A DNA stretch of 40,617 nucleotides from Actinomycetes bacterium (GTDB taxonomy: Bacteria; Actinomycetota; Actinomycetes; Streptosporangiales; Streptosporangiaceae), in contig JAJYTD010000037.1 of NCBI GenBank assembly GCA_021793235.1, positions 1 to 40,617 of the forward strand, given 5' to 3'. A program made the translations under genes and the position numbers. This document shows, piece by piece, positions 10,953-40,617 of the stretch. Below the pieces are notes generated by a model. It was not told the DNA's origin. It did not search any database and saw nothing but the letters and a program-made list of their open reading frames with translations. Each line of letters opens with the position of its first letter. The first letter of the stretch is position 1.

Positions 10953-11800
10953 TACCTCCGCGATTCGACTACACCCGGCCCGCCACCCTCGCCGAGGCCG
11001 TCGGCATCCTGGCCGCCGACGAGGACGCCAAAGTCCTCGCCGGCGGGCAGAGCCTGCTGCCGCTGCTGCGTTTCCGGCTGGCCTCCCCCACCTCGGTGGT
11101 GGACCTGGGTGCGATCGCCGGGCTGCGGGGCGTTGCAGACGAGGGCGGCCACGTGCGGGTCGGCGCGCTGACCACCCACTACGAGGTGGTCAACGACCCG
11201 CTGATCGCGGCGCACTGCGGCCTGCTCGCCCAGGCGACCCGGACGGTCGCCGACCCCGCGGTCCGGCACCGGGGCACCATCGGCGGTTCCATGGCCCACG
11301 CCGATCCGGCGGGCGACCTGCCCGCGGTGGCGCTCGCCTTGGCCGCCGAGTTCCTGGTGACCGGCCCCGGCGGCGACCGGTCCGTTCCCGCGGCCGAGTT
11401 CTTCGTGGACTACCTGACCACGGCGCTCGAACCCGGGGAGGTGCTGACGGCGATCCGCATCCCCAAACTGGACGGGTGGTCGTTCCACTACGAGAAGTTC
11501 TCCCGGACCGCGCAGGCATGGGCTATCGTCGGAGTAGCCGCCGCGGTACGCCGCGTCAACGGCGACATCACCGAGGCTCGGGTGGGGCTGACCAACATGG
11601 GCACCACCCCCGTCCGCGCCGACAGCGTGGAATCGGCCTGCCGGGGGATCCCCGCTCAGGCCGACGCGATACATGAGGCCGCCCGGTCCGCCGACGCCGA
11701 AGCGGACCCGCCGAGCGACCTCAGTGCCCAAGCCGATTACCGCCGCCACCTCGCCCGGGTGCTCACCGGCCGCGCTCTGGCGCGCGCCGCTGGCAGCTGA
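10949..11800 (+). CDS. CoxM-like FAD-binding subunit of the molybdenum hydroxylase
   Basis: The 283-residue protein carries FAD, which takes electrons from the 2Fe-2S subunit. The two flavin-binding motifs are AGGQSLLPLLRFRLA (about 31-45) and TIGGSMAHADPAGDLPA (about 109-125). The CO dehydrogenase C-terminal domain follows (FHYEKFSRTAQAWAIVGVAA). Length matches the usual 280-300. The start is GTG at 10949 overlapping the TGA of the large subunit (GTGA), which fixes the reading frame. It is the last gene of the operon: a strong hairpin begins 14 bases after its stop. The electron acceptor (quinone, or oxygen) cannot be told from sequence. Confidence 0.93.
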   Translation: MIPPRFDYTRPATLAEAVGILAADEDAKVLAGGQSLLPLLRFRLASPTSVVDLGAIAGLRGVADEGGHVRVGALTTHYEVVNDPLIAAHCGLLAQATRTVADPAVRHRGTIGGSMAHADPAGDLPAVALALAAEFLVTGPGGDRSVPAAEFFVDYLTTALEPGEVLTAIRIPKLDGWSFHYEKFSRTAQAWAIVGVAAAVRRVNGDITEARVGLTNMGTTPVRADSVESACRGIPAQADAIHEAARSADAEADPPSDLSAQADYRRHLARVLTGRALARAAGS

Positions 11801-11814
11801 ACGGGGCCGGGACG

Positions 11815-11859
11815 GGGATGGGGCCGCGGACGTCCGGGGGGCGATCGCGGCCCCATCCC
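11815..11859 (+). terminator. 14-bp hairpin ending the molybdenum hydroxylase operon
   Basis: A perfect 14-bp stem (GGGATGGGGCCGCG paired with 11846-11859) closes a 17-base loop, 14 bases after the FAD-subunit stop. There is no clear U-run, which is usual for high-GC actinobacterial terminators. The remaining bases up to 12029 show no gene. Confidence 0.7.
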
Positions 11860-18795: not shown

Positions 18796-21117
18796 TTACT
18801 CTCGGACCGTGATGCGCGGAGGGGTGAAGGCGCGCACCGGGGGCGGGGCAGAGCGGTACTTCTCCACCTCCACCAGAGCGCGCTGGCCCGTGGTGCCCTG
18901 GCTCAGGGACGACGTTCCGACATCGGCGGTGAGGACATTGGGGTTGCCGTGCGCGCAGGTCACATCTGGGGCAGACGGATCGAACCAGGCCCCCGTGGAA
19001 AGCTGGGCCACCCCCCGGCGCAGGTCCTCGCTGACCTCCACCCCGGCGAGGCAGCTGCCGCGGTCGTTGAAGACCCGGACCACGTCGCCGTCGGCGATCC
19101 CCCGTTCCGCGGCGTCCTGCGGGTGCAGCCGGAGCGGAGCGCGGTCGGCGATCTTCTGCGACCTGCTGTGCGCCCCCATGTCCTGCTGGCTGTGCAGCCG
19201 CCCGCTCGGCTGGTTGGCGATGAGCAGCAGCGGCCAGCGTTGGGCCCGCTGCGAGCCGAGCCGTTCCTCGGAGGGCAGCCACACCGGGTGCCCCGGGCAG
19301 TCGGGGTAGCCGAATGAGGCGATGGTCTCGGAGAACAGCTCGATGCGCCCGCTCGGCGTCTGCAGCGGATGGGCCCGGGGGTCCTCCCGGAAGCGGCCGA
19401 GCAGGGTATCGTCCTCGGCGCGGGCGGGGATGTCCACGCCTCCCGCCGCCCAGAAGTCGTCGAACTCGGGCAGGTCACCGGGCTGGGCGGCGCGCCAGTC
19501 CGCGTAGATGCGCCGCAGCCACTGCGCTGATGTGCGCCCTTCGGTGAACTCGTGTTCGGTGCCCAGCCGCCGGGCGAGACCTGTGTAGATGTCGTACTCG
19601 TCGCGGGCCTGCCCGTGCGGGGGCACCGCCCGGGGCATCGCCCGCAGCCGGAGGTCGCCCTGGCTGGCGGCGTAGTCGTCGCGCTCCAGCGACGTGGTCG
19701 AGGGGAGCACGATGTCGGCGTGCCGTGCGGTCGCGGTCCAGTGCGTCTCGGCGACGACGACCGTGTCGGGGCGGCCGAACGCCCGGCTCAGCCGGGCGAG
19801 GTCCTGGTGGTGGTGGAAGGGGTTGCCGCCGGACCACGCGACCAGCTTGATCTGGGGATAGGTGCGCCGTTCGCCGTTGTAGTCGTAGGGCTGCCCCGGG
19901 TGCAGCAGCATGTCGGCCACGCGCGCGACGGGAATGAAGGAGTCGACGGGGTTGTGTCCCTGCGGCAGTGTGGGCAGGCCGAACGGTGTGGCCCCGCCCC
20001 CGTAGCTGCCCATCGACCCGTACCCGGCGGCGAAACCGCCCCCGGGAAGCCCGATCTGGCCGAGGCAGGCGGCCAGCGCGATCCCCGCCCACAGCGGCTG
20101 CTCACCGTAGCGCGCCCGCTGCACCGACCACCCGACGTTGATCAGTGTCCGGCCGTGCGCCATGCGGCGGGCGAGGTCGGTGAGCGTGCGGGCGGACAGG
20201 CCGCACTCCTGCGCCGCCCACTCGGGGGTCTTGGCGATACCGTCGGTCTCCCCCAGCACATAGCGGCGCAGCGTGTCGGCGCCCACCGTGTACCGGTCCA
20301 GGAACCGCTGGTCTGCGAGCCCTTCGGTGAAGAGCACATGCATCAGCGCGAGCAGGATCGCGGTGTCCTCGCCCGGAGCGGCCGGCAGCCATTCGGCGCC
20401 GATGTCGGCGAGGGTGTCGTCGCGCAACGGACTGACCGACACCACCTCCATGCCGCGCTGGGCGGCGGCCCGCATGCCGGGTTCGGCGGTGTGCGCGGAC
20501 CGGCCGCCGGAGGCGGTCCAGTTGTTGGAGACCCGCAGCCCGCCGAACGTCACGAGCAGGTCGGTGTGCTCGGCGACGGCTTCCCACGTGGGGGGACGGC
20601 GCAGCAGGTCATGGGCGCCTTGGGCGCCGAGGACGTGGGGGGTCAGCACCTCGACGGCGGCGTGGCTGTAGGTGTTCTTCTTACCGGTGTAGCCGCCGAT
20701 GGTGTTGAGGAAGCGGTGCAGTTGGCTCTGTGTGTGGTGGAACCGTCCGGCGCTGCCCCAACCGTAGGACCCGCCGTAGATCGCGGCGTTGCCGAAGGTG
20801 CGGCGCACCCGGTTGAACTCGTCGGCGAGCAGGTCGAGCACCGTGTCCCAGTCCAGCGCCACGTACTCGTCTTCGGGGTCGCCCCGCCGTTCGTCGGGGC
20901 CGGGGCCGTTCTCCAGCCAGCGGCGGCGCACGGCGGGGCGGTCGATGCGCGTGGCGTGGTGCTGGGCGCCGGGCGTGTTCTCGATGAGGGGGGACGGGGC
21001 AGGATCATCGGGGTCGGGCCGCACGCCCACCACCTGGCCGCCGTCGACCAGGACCCGGTAGGTCCCCCAATGCGAACTGGCCGGGTATTCCAGCACACCA
21101 GGGTTCTGCTGATCCAC
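18796..21117 (-). CDS. BisC/DMSO-reductase-family molybdopterin oxidoreductase
   Basis: The 773-residue protein matches the length of biotin sulfoxide reductase (BisC) and the TorA/DMSO reductase branch. Landmarks are SSHWGTYRVLVDGG near the N-terminus, GGSYGWGSAGRFHHTQ (residues 116-131) with the serine that ligates molybdenum in this branch, YTGKKNTYSH, NVGWSVQRARYGEQP, WSGGNPFHHHQDL, VVVAETHWTATARHADIVLPS and the C-terminal MGD-binding segment with QPSGRLHSQQD and HGNPNVLT. No Tat signal and no N-terminal cysteines for an FeS cluster are seen, so the enzyme should be cytoplasmic, as BisC is. The start is GTG at 21117 (MDQQNPGVLEYPASSHWG). Likely substrates are biotin or methionine sulfoxides or other S/N-oxides; the sequence does not decide. 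It is divergent from a CitE-like lyase. Confidence 0.9.
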   Translation of the reverse strand: MDQQNPGVLEYPASSHWGTYRVLVDGGQVVGVRPDPDDPAPSPLIENTPGAQHHATRIDRPAVRRRWLENGPGPDERRGDPEDEYVALDWDTVLDLLADEFNRVRRTFGNAAIYGGSYGWGSAGRFHHTQSQLHRFLNTIGGYTGKKNTYSHAAVEVLTPHVLGAQGAHDLLRRPPTWEAVAEHTDLLVTFGGLRVSNNWTASGGRSAHTAEPGMRAAAQRGMEVVSVSPLRDDTLADIGAEWLPAAPGEDTAILLALMHVLFTEGLADQRFLDRYTVGADTLRRYVLGETDGIAKTPEWAAQECGLSARTLTDLARRMAHGRTLINVGWSVQRARYGEQPLWAGIALAACLGQIGLPGGGFAAGYGSMGSYGGGATPFGLPTLPQGHNPVDSFIPVARVADMLLHPGQPYDYNGERRTYPQIKLVAWSGGNPFHHHQDLARLSRAFGRPDTVVVAETHWTATARHADIVLPSTTSLERDDYAASQGDLRLRAMPRAVPPHGQARDEYDIYTGLARRLGTEHEFTEGRTSAQWLRRIYADWRAAQPGDLPEFDDFWAAGGVDIPARAEDDTLLGRFREDPRAHPLQTPSGRIELFSETIASFGYPDCPGHPVWLPSEERLGSQRAQRWPLLLIANQPSGRLHSQQDMGAHSRSQKIADRAPLRLHPQDAAERGIADGDVVRVFNDRGSCLAGVEVSEDLRRGVAQLSTGAWFDPSAPDVTCAHGNPNVLTADVGTSSLSQGTTGQRALVEVEKYRSAPPPVRAFTPPRITVRE

Positions 21118-21172
21118 TCTGCCCCCTTGCGTCGGATGTATGCCTGGAACGCACTTTATGCCCCGCTCGTTC

Positions 21173-21184
21173 GCGCGTACGCGC
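21173..21184. promoter_or_regulatory. 12-bp perfect palindrome between divergent BisC-like and lyase genes
   Basis: GCGCGTACGCGC is a perfect palindrome centred between the two divergent genes (150-base gap). It could be a shared operator. GC-rich palindromes of this length can occur by chance, so the call is tentative. Confidence 0.35.
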
Positions 21185-21267
21185 ACACGCACCATCCCGG
21201 TCGCGGCCTCCCGACCGCGTATTTGCGAAGATAGCGGTCACCGGCCTGTCGACCTTGGGAGTGGTGC

Positions 21268-22215
21268 ATGAGTGCGGTGATGTCGCGGCCGCGTCGATCG
21301 GTCCTGGCGGTCCCCGGATCCAACCCGCGGTTCATCGAGAAAGCGCGCGGCCTGGACGTGGACGCGTTCTTCTTGGACCTGGAAGACGCCGTGGCCCCGC
21401 TGGAGAAGGAGAAGGCCCGCGACACCGTTGTGGCCGCGCTGAACGAGGGCGGCTGGGACGGCAAGGTCCGCACGGTCCGCGTGAACGACCTCACCACGCA
21501 CTGGACCTACCGCGACGTGATCACCGTGGTGGAGGGGGCCGGCGCCAACCTGGACTGCCTCATCCTGCCCAAGGTCACCGACGCGAGCCAGGTGCGGTGG
21601 CTGGACCTGCTGCTCACCCAGATCGAACGCGCCACCGGCCTGGAGCCCGGGCGGATCGGCATCGAAGCCCAGATCGAAGACGCCCGCGGGCTCGTGGAAG
21701 TGGACGCCATCGCGGCCGCGTCGCCGCGCCTGGAGGCCCTCGTCTACGGCCCGGCCGACTTCATGGCCTCGATCAACATGAAAACGCTGGTCGTGGGGGA
21801 ACAACCACCCGGATACGACGTCGGCGACGCCTACCACTACGTCCTCATGCGCATCCTCATGGCCGCCCGCGCCAACGACCTCCACGCGATCGACGGCCCT
21901 TACCTGCAGATCCGCGATGTAGAGGCGTTCCGCCGCTCGGCCGGACGCGCCGCCGCGCTGGGCTTCGACGGCAAATGGGTGCTACACCCTCTCCAGGTCG
22001 ACGCCGCCAATGAGGTGTTCACCCCGTCCCAGGAGGACTACGACCACGCCGAAGAGATCCTCGACGCCTACGAGCACGCCACAACGGTGCAGCGCCGAGG
22101 CGCGGTGATGCTCGGCGAGGAGATGCTGGACGAGGCCTCGCGCAAGATGGCCCTTGTGGTCGCCGCCAAGGGACGCGCCGCAGGCTTGGAAAGGACGACC
22201 GAACCCCGCCGGTGA
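21268..22215 (+). CDS. HpcH/HpaI-family CoA ester lyase (CitE/malyl-CoA lyase-like)
   Basis: The 315-residue TIM-barrel enzyme belongs to the CitE/HpcH family, which cleaves or forms 3-hydroxyacyl-CoA thioesters such as citramalyl-CoA or malyl-CoA. Family blocks are RSVLAVPGSNPRFIEKA (10-26), AFFLDLEDAVAPLEK with the Mg-binding acid, VRVNDLTTHW, LILPKVTDA, IGIEAQIEDARGL with the second metal Glu, and LEALVYGPADFMAS. The C-terminal part, FDGKWVLHPLQVDAANEVFTPSQ, is typical of the malyl/citramalyl-CoA lyase subgroup. ATG at 21268 has GGGAG about 7 bases upstream. Closest known roles are itaconate/citramalyl-CoA breakdown or a glyoxylate-linked step; the substrate is not decided. A dispersed palindromic element begins 29 bases after the stop. 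Confidence 0.88.
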   Translation: MSAVMSRPRRSVLAVPGSNPRFIEKARGLDVDAFFLDLEDAVAPLEKEKARDTVVAALNEGGWDGKVRTVRVNDLTTHWTYRDVITVVEGAGANLDCLILPKVTDASQVRWLDLLLTQIERATGLEPGRIGIEAQIEDARGLVEVDAIAAASPRLEALVYGPADFMASINMKTLVVGEQPPGYDVGDAYHYVLMRILMAARANDLHAIDGPYLQIRDVEAFRRSAGRAAALGFDGKWVLHPLQVDAANEVFTPSQEDYDHAEEILDAYEHATTVQRRGAVMLGEEMLDEASRKMALVVAAKGRAAGLERTTEPRR

Positions 22216-38982: not shown

Positions 38983-39540
38983 GTATCGCCGCCTTTGTCG
39001 GGGGTCTGCTACTCACGGCGCCCCAAGAATATGCGGCCCCCGACCCCGGCCTGCCGCCGGTCCCGGCATTACCGCCCGGGGTCGGCCCCGGCGCGCCGCC
39101 CGGAGCCGGGCACCGGGGCCTACAGGTGTGGCCGGTGCTACAGCTCAGCGGCGCGGGCGGCGGTGCGGCCTGGACATCGGTCTTTGACCGCCCGATGTGG
39201 CCCACGTGGAGGGTGGACTGCACGGGATACATCGGTGGACCGTGCACACGGTTCGCGCTGTCTGCACATGGGGCCAGTGGGATACCGCACGCCAGGTTGA
39301 CTACTGTGGCGGTGTGGGGCCGCTGTGTGTCAGCGCGATGGTGGTTCGGCGGGGTTCCCAGGTGCGGGATCGTCATGCTCGGGCGACACTTGGGGCCCAT
39401 GGGGCGGAAGAACTATTCTTCCTTCCACCTGGTTGCCCCGGCCAGTCGAACGGACACGGGTCCGCAGACGCTCCTGCTGTGAATCGCTGCCCTGGTGCGG
39501 GGTGGCTGCCATACCCCCAATCTAGCAAGGAGAGCCATCG
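38983..39540. other. Long intergenic region before the metallopeptidase-like gene
   Basis: These 558 bases hold no gene that I can support; the open frames here lack family wording and ribosome sites. A possible plus-strand promoter is TTGGGG (39390-39395), 18 bases, TATTCT (39414-39419). AGGAGAG at 39528-39534 is the ribosome site of the next gene. The region marks the change from housekeeping to accessory sequence. Confidence 0.4.
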
Positions 39541-40466
39541 ATGGGCGAGGATTACCTGACCGCGCGCGACCAGGTCAGCCCCGAGGTATACCATGGCTCG
39601 GGGCTGACATCCACGAGGCCGGACACCTGGCCGGTGTGCTGGCTCTGGGGCTGAAGCCCGATTACATCGCCATAGGACGCGACCACACCACACAGGCCAG
39701 CGGGGGCGTCTCCTTCCAGATGGCCGGCGCCGATGCGCAGCACGTAGCGGTCATCGTCAAGCTCGGTGTAGCCGCTGAGGAGAGGTATTACTCCGAACTC
39801 GGCTACACCGAGCAGTCCCACCCCGAGTTCGTCCGCGATATGCGCGCCCGCAGCGGCGCCGGCGACGAGATCTTTCTGTCCTCCCTTCAGGAGAACAACC
39901 CGCGCCTGGTCATCAACCAAGAGCAGGCCTGGGCCGATGCCCGGCGGATGGTCGCCAACCCGGCCTTTTGGGAGCTGACCAAAGCGCTTGGCCGGGAAGC
40001 GGGCCAGCGCCTCTATATGGAGACCGACGCGATCATGGAAGCCGCGGCCCCCTTCGAACCGGCGACCCTGCTGGAACGGGAGGGCATCCGCGCGTGGGTG
40101 CCGGGTGCGGAACAGGTGCGCAAAGCATGGGAGGCAGCGCAGTTCAGCCTAAAGGATCTGCTTTCTGAAGAGACCCAGAGGAACCCGCGGGTTTCGCAGC
40201 TAGCCGAAGAGGTGCGCCGGCAGGCCGCAGCCGCAGCGCAGGAGCGCGTCGCCGATACGGCGCCCGAACGAAACGTGTCACAGGAGACCTCCGCCGATCC
40301 GAAGCCTCAGGCGGGCACCGGTCCTGCGCGGATGAGCCCCGCCACGATCCGTTCCGCCCTGCGGGCCGGCCAGTCCAGAGGATCGGGTCAGCGCCGGGGA
40401 GGCCACTTGAAGACCCTGTTCTCCCGAGGCTTCGGCAACAGGAAAAGCAACCGACGGGCAACATAA
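39541..40466 (+). CDS. HEAGH metallopeptidase-like protein with an apparent -1 frameshift near its start
   Basis: The main frame encodes about 285 residues from HEAGHLAGVLALGLKPDYIA onward, with the zinc-binding HEAGH (39612-39626) and a downstream GGVSF. This arrangement resembles the M41 (FtsH peptidase) family but without the AAA domain. A long helical region (ADARRMVANPAFWELTKALG) and a Gln/Arg-rich, basic C-terminus follow. The only start with a good ribosome site, ATG 39541 after AGGAGAG, is in another frame (MGEDYLTARDQVSPEVYHGS) and stops after 39 codons. Adding one G in the GGGG run at 39600-39603 joins it to the HEAGH frame. The main frame alone would need GTG 39495 without a ribosome site. 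This may be an indel, programmed slippage or a decayed gene. Function is unknown. Confidence 0.6.
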
Positions 40467-40479
40467 TCGAGCGCTTCGC

Positions 40480-40617
40480 AGGGCCGGGCGCACGATCGTG
40501 TGCCCGGCTGCGGCCATCGCGGCCTGGATCCCGGCCCCGGCAAAGCCCTTGTCGCACACCAGCGGCACCGGTCCCGGGGCGATCTGCCGGGCGTGGGCCA
40601 GGTGCAGAGCCTGCTTG
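40480..40617 (-). pseudogene. Truncated DDE transposase fragment running off the right edge
   Basis: On the minus strand the open frame from 40616 reads ALHLAHARQIAPGPVPLVCD, KGFAGAGIQAAMAAAGHTIV and RP, the wording around the second catalytic Asp (CDKGFAG) of IS4/IS5-like transposases. After RP (about 40482) the resemblance stops and the frame enters sequence antisense to the preceding gene, so the C-terminal part with the catalytic Glu is missing. The 5' part lies beyond the window. It is an insertion-sequence remnant abutting the metallopeptidase-like gene. Confidence 0.65.

Follow-up and report, generated by a model that had tools for sequence, protein, structure and literature searches.

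FtsH and its relatives (family M41; PDB 2di4, 4ww0, 2dhr) are the closest described counterparts of the protein presented here, and in M41 peptidases the third zinc ligand is an Asp in a downstream helix. Concerning genes that are divided between two frames, gene 60 of bacteriophage T4 is the model of translational bypassing and has a stop codon beside its take-off codon; to our knowledge, very few bacterial cases of bypassing exist. Frames can also be altered by mutation at quasipalindromes: template switching is an established route by which imperfect inverted repeats become perfect in E. coli (PMC7202029) and is known to alter coding genes in yeast (PMC8604942), and a single template-switch event is described as able to create a stem (PMC8794818).

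The gene presented in our work lies at the end of a 40,617-nt contig of a member of the Streptosporangiaceae, analyzed over its whole length (hereafter the window). As in the quasipalindrome cases, its change of frame falls at a perfect inverted repeat, but the ancestral imperfect repeat is not seen, as no relative above 34% identity was found. Like T4 gene 60, it has a hairpin between matched codons and a change of frame; unlike gene 60, it has neither a stop after the putative take-off codon nor conservation of the arrangement, and the joined product is only hypothetical. Its predicted protein shares with FtsH the HExxH helix, the Glu of the A-A-E motif and the helical fold, but it lacks an AAA ATPase, leaves too little space ahead of the domain for membrane segments, is shorter than 320 residues and carries a basic tail. 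What is new here is a break inside a perfect 12-bp inverted repeat, together with a second repeat of 14 bp in the same gene.

Two Reading Frames of the Gene

A Shine-Dalgarno-like AAGGAG at 39527-39532 of the forward strand is located 8 nt before an ATG at 39541. The frame opened by this ATG (position mod 3 = 1; 39541-39654) runs for 37 codons, instead of the 39 counted in the original prediction, and ends with a TGA stop at 39652-39654. The HEAGH zinc motif, at 39612-39626, is encoded out of frame with it (mod 3 = 0), in a frame of the same strand that is open across 39483-40466 and has GTG 39495 as its sole ATG, GTG or TTG ahead of HEAGH. The coding part of this downstream frame, 39603-40466, comprises 287 codons for an M41-like peptidase domain and a basic tail.

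Each frame was scored by codon log-odds derived from 38 genes of this genome. For the stretch 39541-39600 the scores are +8.7 bits in the ATG frame and -24.7 in the HEAGH frame, while reference windows of 20 codons have a mean of -9.5 and a maximum of 2.9 when intergenic (n = 480, overlapping) and a mean of 9.7 when truly coding (n = 178). From 39603 on, the HEAGH frame is coding, with +42.0 bits over 100 codons versus -92.4 and -127.8 for the other two frames. Measured against these reference windows, the scores before and after the break show that the switch of frame exceeds chance. With a finer split, 39541-39570 in the ATG frame gives +8.3, a value reached by none of 510 overlapping intergenic windows. 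The following stretch, 39571-39600, gives 0.3, which is reached by 7.1% of intergenic windows and lies at or above the scores of 10.8% of coding windows; codon usage is ambiguous in this hairpin stretch.

Based on the coarse and the finer scores by frame, the gene begins at ATG 39541, its true N-terminal start, stays coding-like in that frame to at least 39570 and changes frame between 39571 and about 39606. The split of one gene into two frames is real in the assembled sequence, and no credible start belongs to the 287-codon HEAGH frame itself, both in agreement with the original prediction. The join, which had been placed at GGGG 39600-39603, is less sharply defined: the GGGG is present and is one possible switch place, but codon usage allows the switch anywhere from about 39571 to 39606.

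Predicted Fold of the Protein

Neither Pfam nor NCBIfam gave a match for the window protein, and its identity was read from a structure model built from two sequences (mean pLDDT 60.9; among the first 16 blocks of ten, 13 reach 70 or more). Structure comparison with VIA-align, which re-ranked 421 chains preselected by Foldseek, gave Z 10.1-13.3 for rows 1-23 and 3.2 for the next row. Twenty-two of these 23 rows are FtsH, AFG3L2, YME1 or FtsHi motors if 2ce7, whose title says no more than 'EDTA treated', is taken to be FtsH, as we do here; row 22 is 5iqj, a Vibrio cholerae structure of unknown function. Foldseek alone returned nothing at E 0.001 or better, its best match being an FtsHi complex (E 0.034). 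The predicted structure decides for an FtsH (M41) peptidase domain. The FtsH-type zinc motif that had been recognized from the letters thus finds its counterpart in the predicted fold, although the profile search of the HEAGH frame gave no match.

Sequence profiles gave mixed matches. The A1 family profile searched against PDB reached FtsH 2di4 at E 0.079, with NEDD8 ultimate buster 1 higher (E 0.011) through a match that covers the part after the HExxH region. Peptidase_M41 of Pfam matches one of nine family members (E 0.34), and Peptidase_M50B (PF13398) matches five of nine at E up to 1 (best 0.00059), with the window member unmatched and the predicted fold favouring FtsH. Among the Pfam and NCBIfam models tested, the family is covered by weak Peptidase_M50B, M41 and daptide-HExxH scores only. 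Regarding single residues, Glu59 is common to 11/11 FtsH-like rows and to 5/7 homologues (Gln in L015 and L060). Asp88 of P0001, a candidate for the third zinc ligand, is conserved in 7/7 homologues compared, though not in L006, but only 2/11 FtsH-like rows align an Asp with it.

Since only about 20 codons precede the peptidase domain, the protein has no AAA module, in agreement with the original prediction; further upstream there is intergenic sequence and then a gene on the opposite strand. The upstream-frame peptide is similar to the residues that precede HExxH in FtsH and in the family, with p = 0.008 to 0.021 for the best 6-mers across three variants of the test, while the HEAGH frame in the same test gives p = 0.17 to 0.41. 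Reference 6-mers were picked by eye (19 FtsH-like, 5 from the family) and two 6-mers of the window, LTARDQ and VSPEVY, compete for the match, and this likeness was set aside for sizing the change.

A Patchy Actinobacterial Family

Two paralogues, L002 and L003, are encoded in the same genome (E about 1e-16, 29 and 34% identity), the latter value being the best identity to any relative found. Sequence comparison places the window protein in a thin, patchy actinobacterial family of stand-alone M41-like proteins, which comprises L002, L003, L004 (Marinitenerispora sediminis TPS16), L005, L006, L011, L014 and L015, with L060 more distant. The members share with the window member 21-34% identity, HExxH and an invariant A-x-x-D (residues 109-112 of P0001). 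The basic C-terminus described in the original prediction is present and occurs in L002-L005 as well. Genomes with matches at E 0.001 or better, our own included, numbered 3/100, 5/341, 2/60, 9/197 (several FtsH-length frames), 19/296 (mostly FtsH-length) and 13/250 (some weak) in overlapping sets, the wide searches having scored part of their first-look candidates. In the 19/296 set, the FtsH-length frames that make up most of the hits from other genomes were not counted as family. One genome (G042) carries up to four relatives.

The family members are single-frame, in contrast to the window member with its split and its two perfect inverted repeats. Specifically, ten HExxH homologues (the nine listed above and L038) have the motif and the domain behind it encoded in one open frame, with an ATG, GTG or TTG start codon 9 or more codons ahead of HExxH. 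L007 of Marinitenerispora sediminis (G042:C440) seems, by eye, to be broken by a frame change after HEGAH and has a TGA inside the match, but its break lies elsewhere than that of the window gene. The comparison with homologues for which the original prediction had called therefore gave ten intact frames, and as far as the sequences tell, no examined homologue supports a conserved split. The search match of L014 extends over three stop codons past the end of its frame.

Two loci from the same taxonomic family, L008 and L062, have no HExxH and keep the downstream motif as judged by eye, and catalytically dead versions of the family seem to exist. L003 (in L024) and L004 (in L026) are both located, by eye, within a few kb of MSVTQVVRDSTVVEHAKVAAQQKRKMF and MRIVIAGGHGKIAL genes. 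Because they share these two neighbours, L003 and L004 look orthologous, and the L003-type paralogue may be old in the family.

Searches of plasmids, phages and viral contigs with the 287-residue protein found no relative, so that at their sensitivity nothing points to a mobile or phage gene. PHROGs gave nothing, and PADLOC gave one TIR match (E 0.062) in one family member. A first scan of genome contigs also returned nothing, and a scan with L004 returned Marinitenerispora sediminis alone, both scans needing near-exact stretches of 8 residues. No paper on this gene family was found in our literature searches.

Inverted Repeats in the Gene

The break lies within a perfect 12-bp inverted repeat with an 11-nt loop (39574-39608, forward strand; arms 39574-39585 and 39597-39608), whose 3' arm contains GGGG 39600-39603. 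This repeat had been missed in the first reading of the sequence, and a weak mir-486 match first pointed to it. The hairpin is predicted to fold at -28.7 kcal/mol for 56 nt (z-score -3.67), and 1 of 200 shuffles was as stable. An Rfam scan of 39400-40617 gave no family at gathering score; mir-486 alone was listed at E up to 1, with scores of 20.3 and 18.7 against a gathering score of 69. The 12-bp repeat has no other copy in the genome with 3 mismatches allowed, and an exact search found none in 99 other genomes.

Two features of the protein coincide with this hairpin. The residue two before HExxH is Asp in the window, coded by the last three bases of the 3' arm. At that site Ala is found in 15/16 short homologues (Leu in L006) and in 19/19 longer FtsH-like frames, 34/35 in all, in a count whose motif filter was passed by 16/17 short loci and 19/22 longer loci (L007, L020, L043 and L052 dropped) and whose short group takes in L049, L050, L063, L064, L066 and L067, which may belong to other M41-like or HExxH families. 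L007, outside the filter, has Cys at the site when read by eye. Moreover, counted manually, the interval between the two coding parts is some 2, 17-23 or 38 nt longer than expected, the value varying with the homologue that is aligned to the upstream frame. All these versions leave the same remainder and the data give no choice among the lengths, but in every alignment version the excess coincides with the hairpin.

A second perfect inverted repeat, with arms of 14 bp (39761-39774 and 39800-39813), is located at 39761-39813 of the forward strand, inside the peptidase domain, where the frame is intact. Its 5' arm uses codons that are rare in the genome (GGT -0.69, GTA -1.50 bits) and looks as if copied from the 3' arm, which encodes residues common to L002 (LGYTE).

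The 40.6-kb window contains five perfect repeats of at least 12 bp (spacer 3-40), and the 0.93-kb peptidase gene accounts for two of these, under a cut-off that was set after the repeats had been seen. Two further 16-kb stretches of the genome contain one perfect repeat each. The expectation from six first-order shuffles is 0.17 per 40.6 kb, and the genome overall is thus richer in such repeats than shuffles of this kind. Among 1000 synonymous-codon shuffles of the gene, 14 had one repeat and none had two, and no arm exceeded 12 bp. Forty sampled genes of this genome (49 kb) contain one such repeat in total, the sample being restricted to genes of at least 200 residues and thus leaving out a 164-residue gene with a 12-bp repeat (L025:3993-4022). 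Nine homologous genes have no repeat of 10 bp or more, and three of them have one of 9 bp. Elsewhere in the window, a perfect 14-bp inverted repeat at 11815-11859 stands right behind a gene ending at 11800 and is probably a terminator-like hairpin.

Origin of the Split

Our favoured reading, held with somewhat better than even confidence, is that the peptidase gene was broken by a hairpin-associated mutation and that its loss is recent; a recent inactivation had been the second option of the original prediction. This is supported by the frame switch in codon usage, by the perfect repeat exactly over the break, by the second repeat in the same gene, by Asp at the Ala site and by the homologues that are intact in a single frame. 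Most economically, one mutation at the hairpin, either a template switch in which one arm was rewritten as a copy of its partner or a short foldback insertion, would have altered the gene by a net length not divisible by three. Translation from ATG 39541 would then leave the peptidase frame and end at 39652-39654, yielding a 37-residue peptide. Because translation would leave the frame and end early, no peptidase would be made from the gene as assembled, and its function would presumably be lost. The downstream frame is still open and motif-bearing, which suggests that the event is recent, and the two intact paralogues may make the loss tolerable. Some observations sit less easily with this reading. 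The N-termini of the homologues fit several net lengths, and the closest relative found, at 34% identity, is too distant to reveal the ancestral sequence or how large the change was. The second inverted repeat left the frame unbroken and could be due to chance or selection, and L007 likewise has no Ala at the site that is Asp in the window gene.

The main rival, to which we give a clearly smaller though substantial weight, is an error of sequencing or assembly at the hairpin, in which case the living strain has an intact gene. For Illumina dephasing errors, inverted repeats and GGC have been described as triggers (PMC3622629), and the break is placed inside a GC-rich inverted repeat with a G run, in a gene whose downstream frame is otherwise undamaged and with the contig end 1 kb further on. 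However, the same source describes such errors as strand-biased miscalls, the G run is just four long, and an error of a few bases alone would leave the perfect 12-bp repeat and the second repeat unexplained.

The remaining explanations are improbable. The HEAGH frame might be translated alone, from GTG 39495 as a leaderless start or from a rare start codon. Actinobacteria use leaderless starts, and the frame is open from 39483 with one GTG; nevertheless, it scores -11.3 bits over the 15 codons from 39495 and keeps its strongly non-coding score over 39541-39600 (-24.7 bits), and AAGGAG serves ATG 39541, which makes this option an unlikely one.

Programmed -1 slippage at GGGG, yielding a joined peptidase, was the mechanism put forward in the original prediction, on the condition of conservation, and we now regard it as very unlikely. 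A tRNA on GGG in the P site could shift back by one base and pair again, a GAGG stands about 14 bases upstream and a strong hairpin is found at the site. On the other side, the ten examined HExxH homologues are unsplit here, the site reads C TCG GGG and offers no X-XXY-YYZ heptamer, and the hairpin contains the site rather than following it by 5-9 nt, so the ribosome has melted the hairpin by then. Further stems are predicted downstream. The joined product would furthermore carry Asp at the Ala site, unusual in a catalytic helix, and its spacing before HExxH is found in few homologues (L038 and perhaps L049, by manual count). A literature search for frameshifting in Streptomyces metalloproteases gave nothing relevant.

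We think it highly improbable that the two hairpins are RNA elements under selection in a functional gene, acting for example in decay or attenuation with the split peptide as a regulatory product: two perfect stems beyond chance would fit, but the nine homologous genes have no such repeats, there is no T-run behind the first stem, no Rfam family reaches its gathering score here and the 12-bp repeat is unique among the genomes searched. Least probable of all is translational bypassing in the manner of T4 gene 60, with the ribosome skipping the hairpin from GAC 39568-39570 to GAC 39606-39608; the hairpin fills nearly the whole gap, identical codons flank it in the appropriate frames, codon scores are favourable as far as 39570, ambiguous between the two codons and favourable again from 39606, and the residues before HE would be 11, as in L004 and L005 (manual count), but the take-off codon is followed by CAG and not by a stop, a matched codon pair is expected by chance among an estimated 60 or so possible pairs, and no examined homologue has such a gap.

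Genomic Surroundings

A fragment of an insertion-sequence transposase gene is located at 40472-40617 on the reverse strand. It is 146 bp long, begins 5 nt after the stop codon of the peptidase gene and runs to the contig end, clear of the frame break. It shares 98% identity with a stretch of contig C111 that carries an ORF matching DDE_Tnp_1 (E 1.5e-8), while the fragment itself has no Pfam match; the IS remnant reported beside the gene is hereby confirmed. Two neighbouring window genes in 18796-22215 have look-alikes side by side in G041 (L027; N-termini compared by eye), about 3 kb from the M41-like gene L005; at the equivalent position, no M41-like gene appears in the gene list of the window.

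Biological Meaning

The split of this gene is most likely a recent loss, possibly an artefact and hardly a switch used by the cell. If bypassing were true after all, the locus would be a cellular counterpart of T4 gene 60, a chromosomal gene in which a perfect hairpin of about 35-38 nt is skipped, and would matter for decoding in general. If hairpin-associated inactivation is correct, the gene would offer a clean single-gene example of how inverted repeats break bacterial genes, with the paralogues intact, in a family of FtsH-like peptidase domains that lack the ATPase which normally feeds them.
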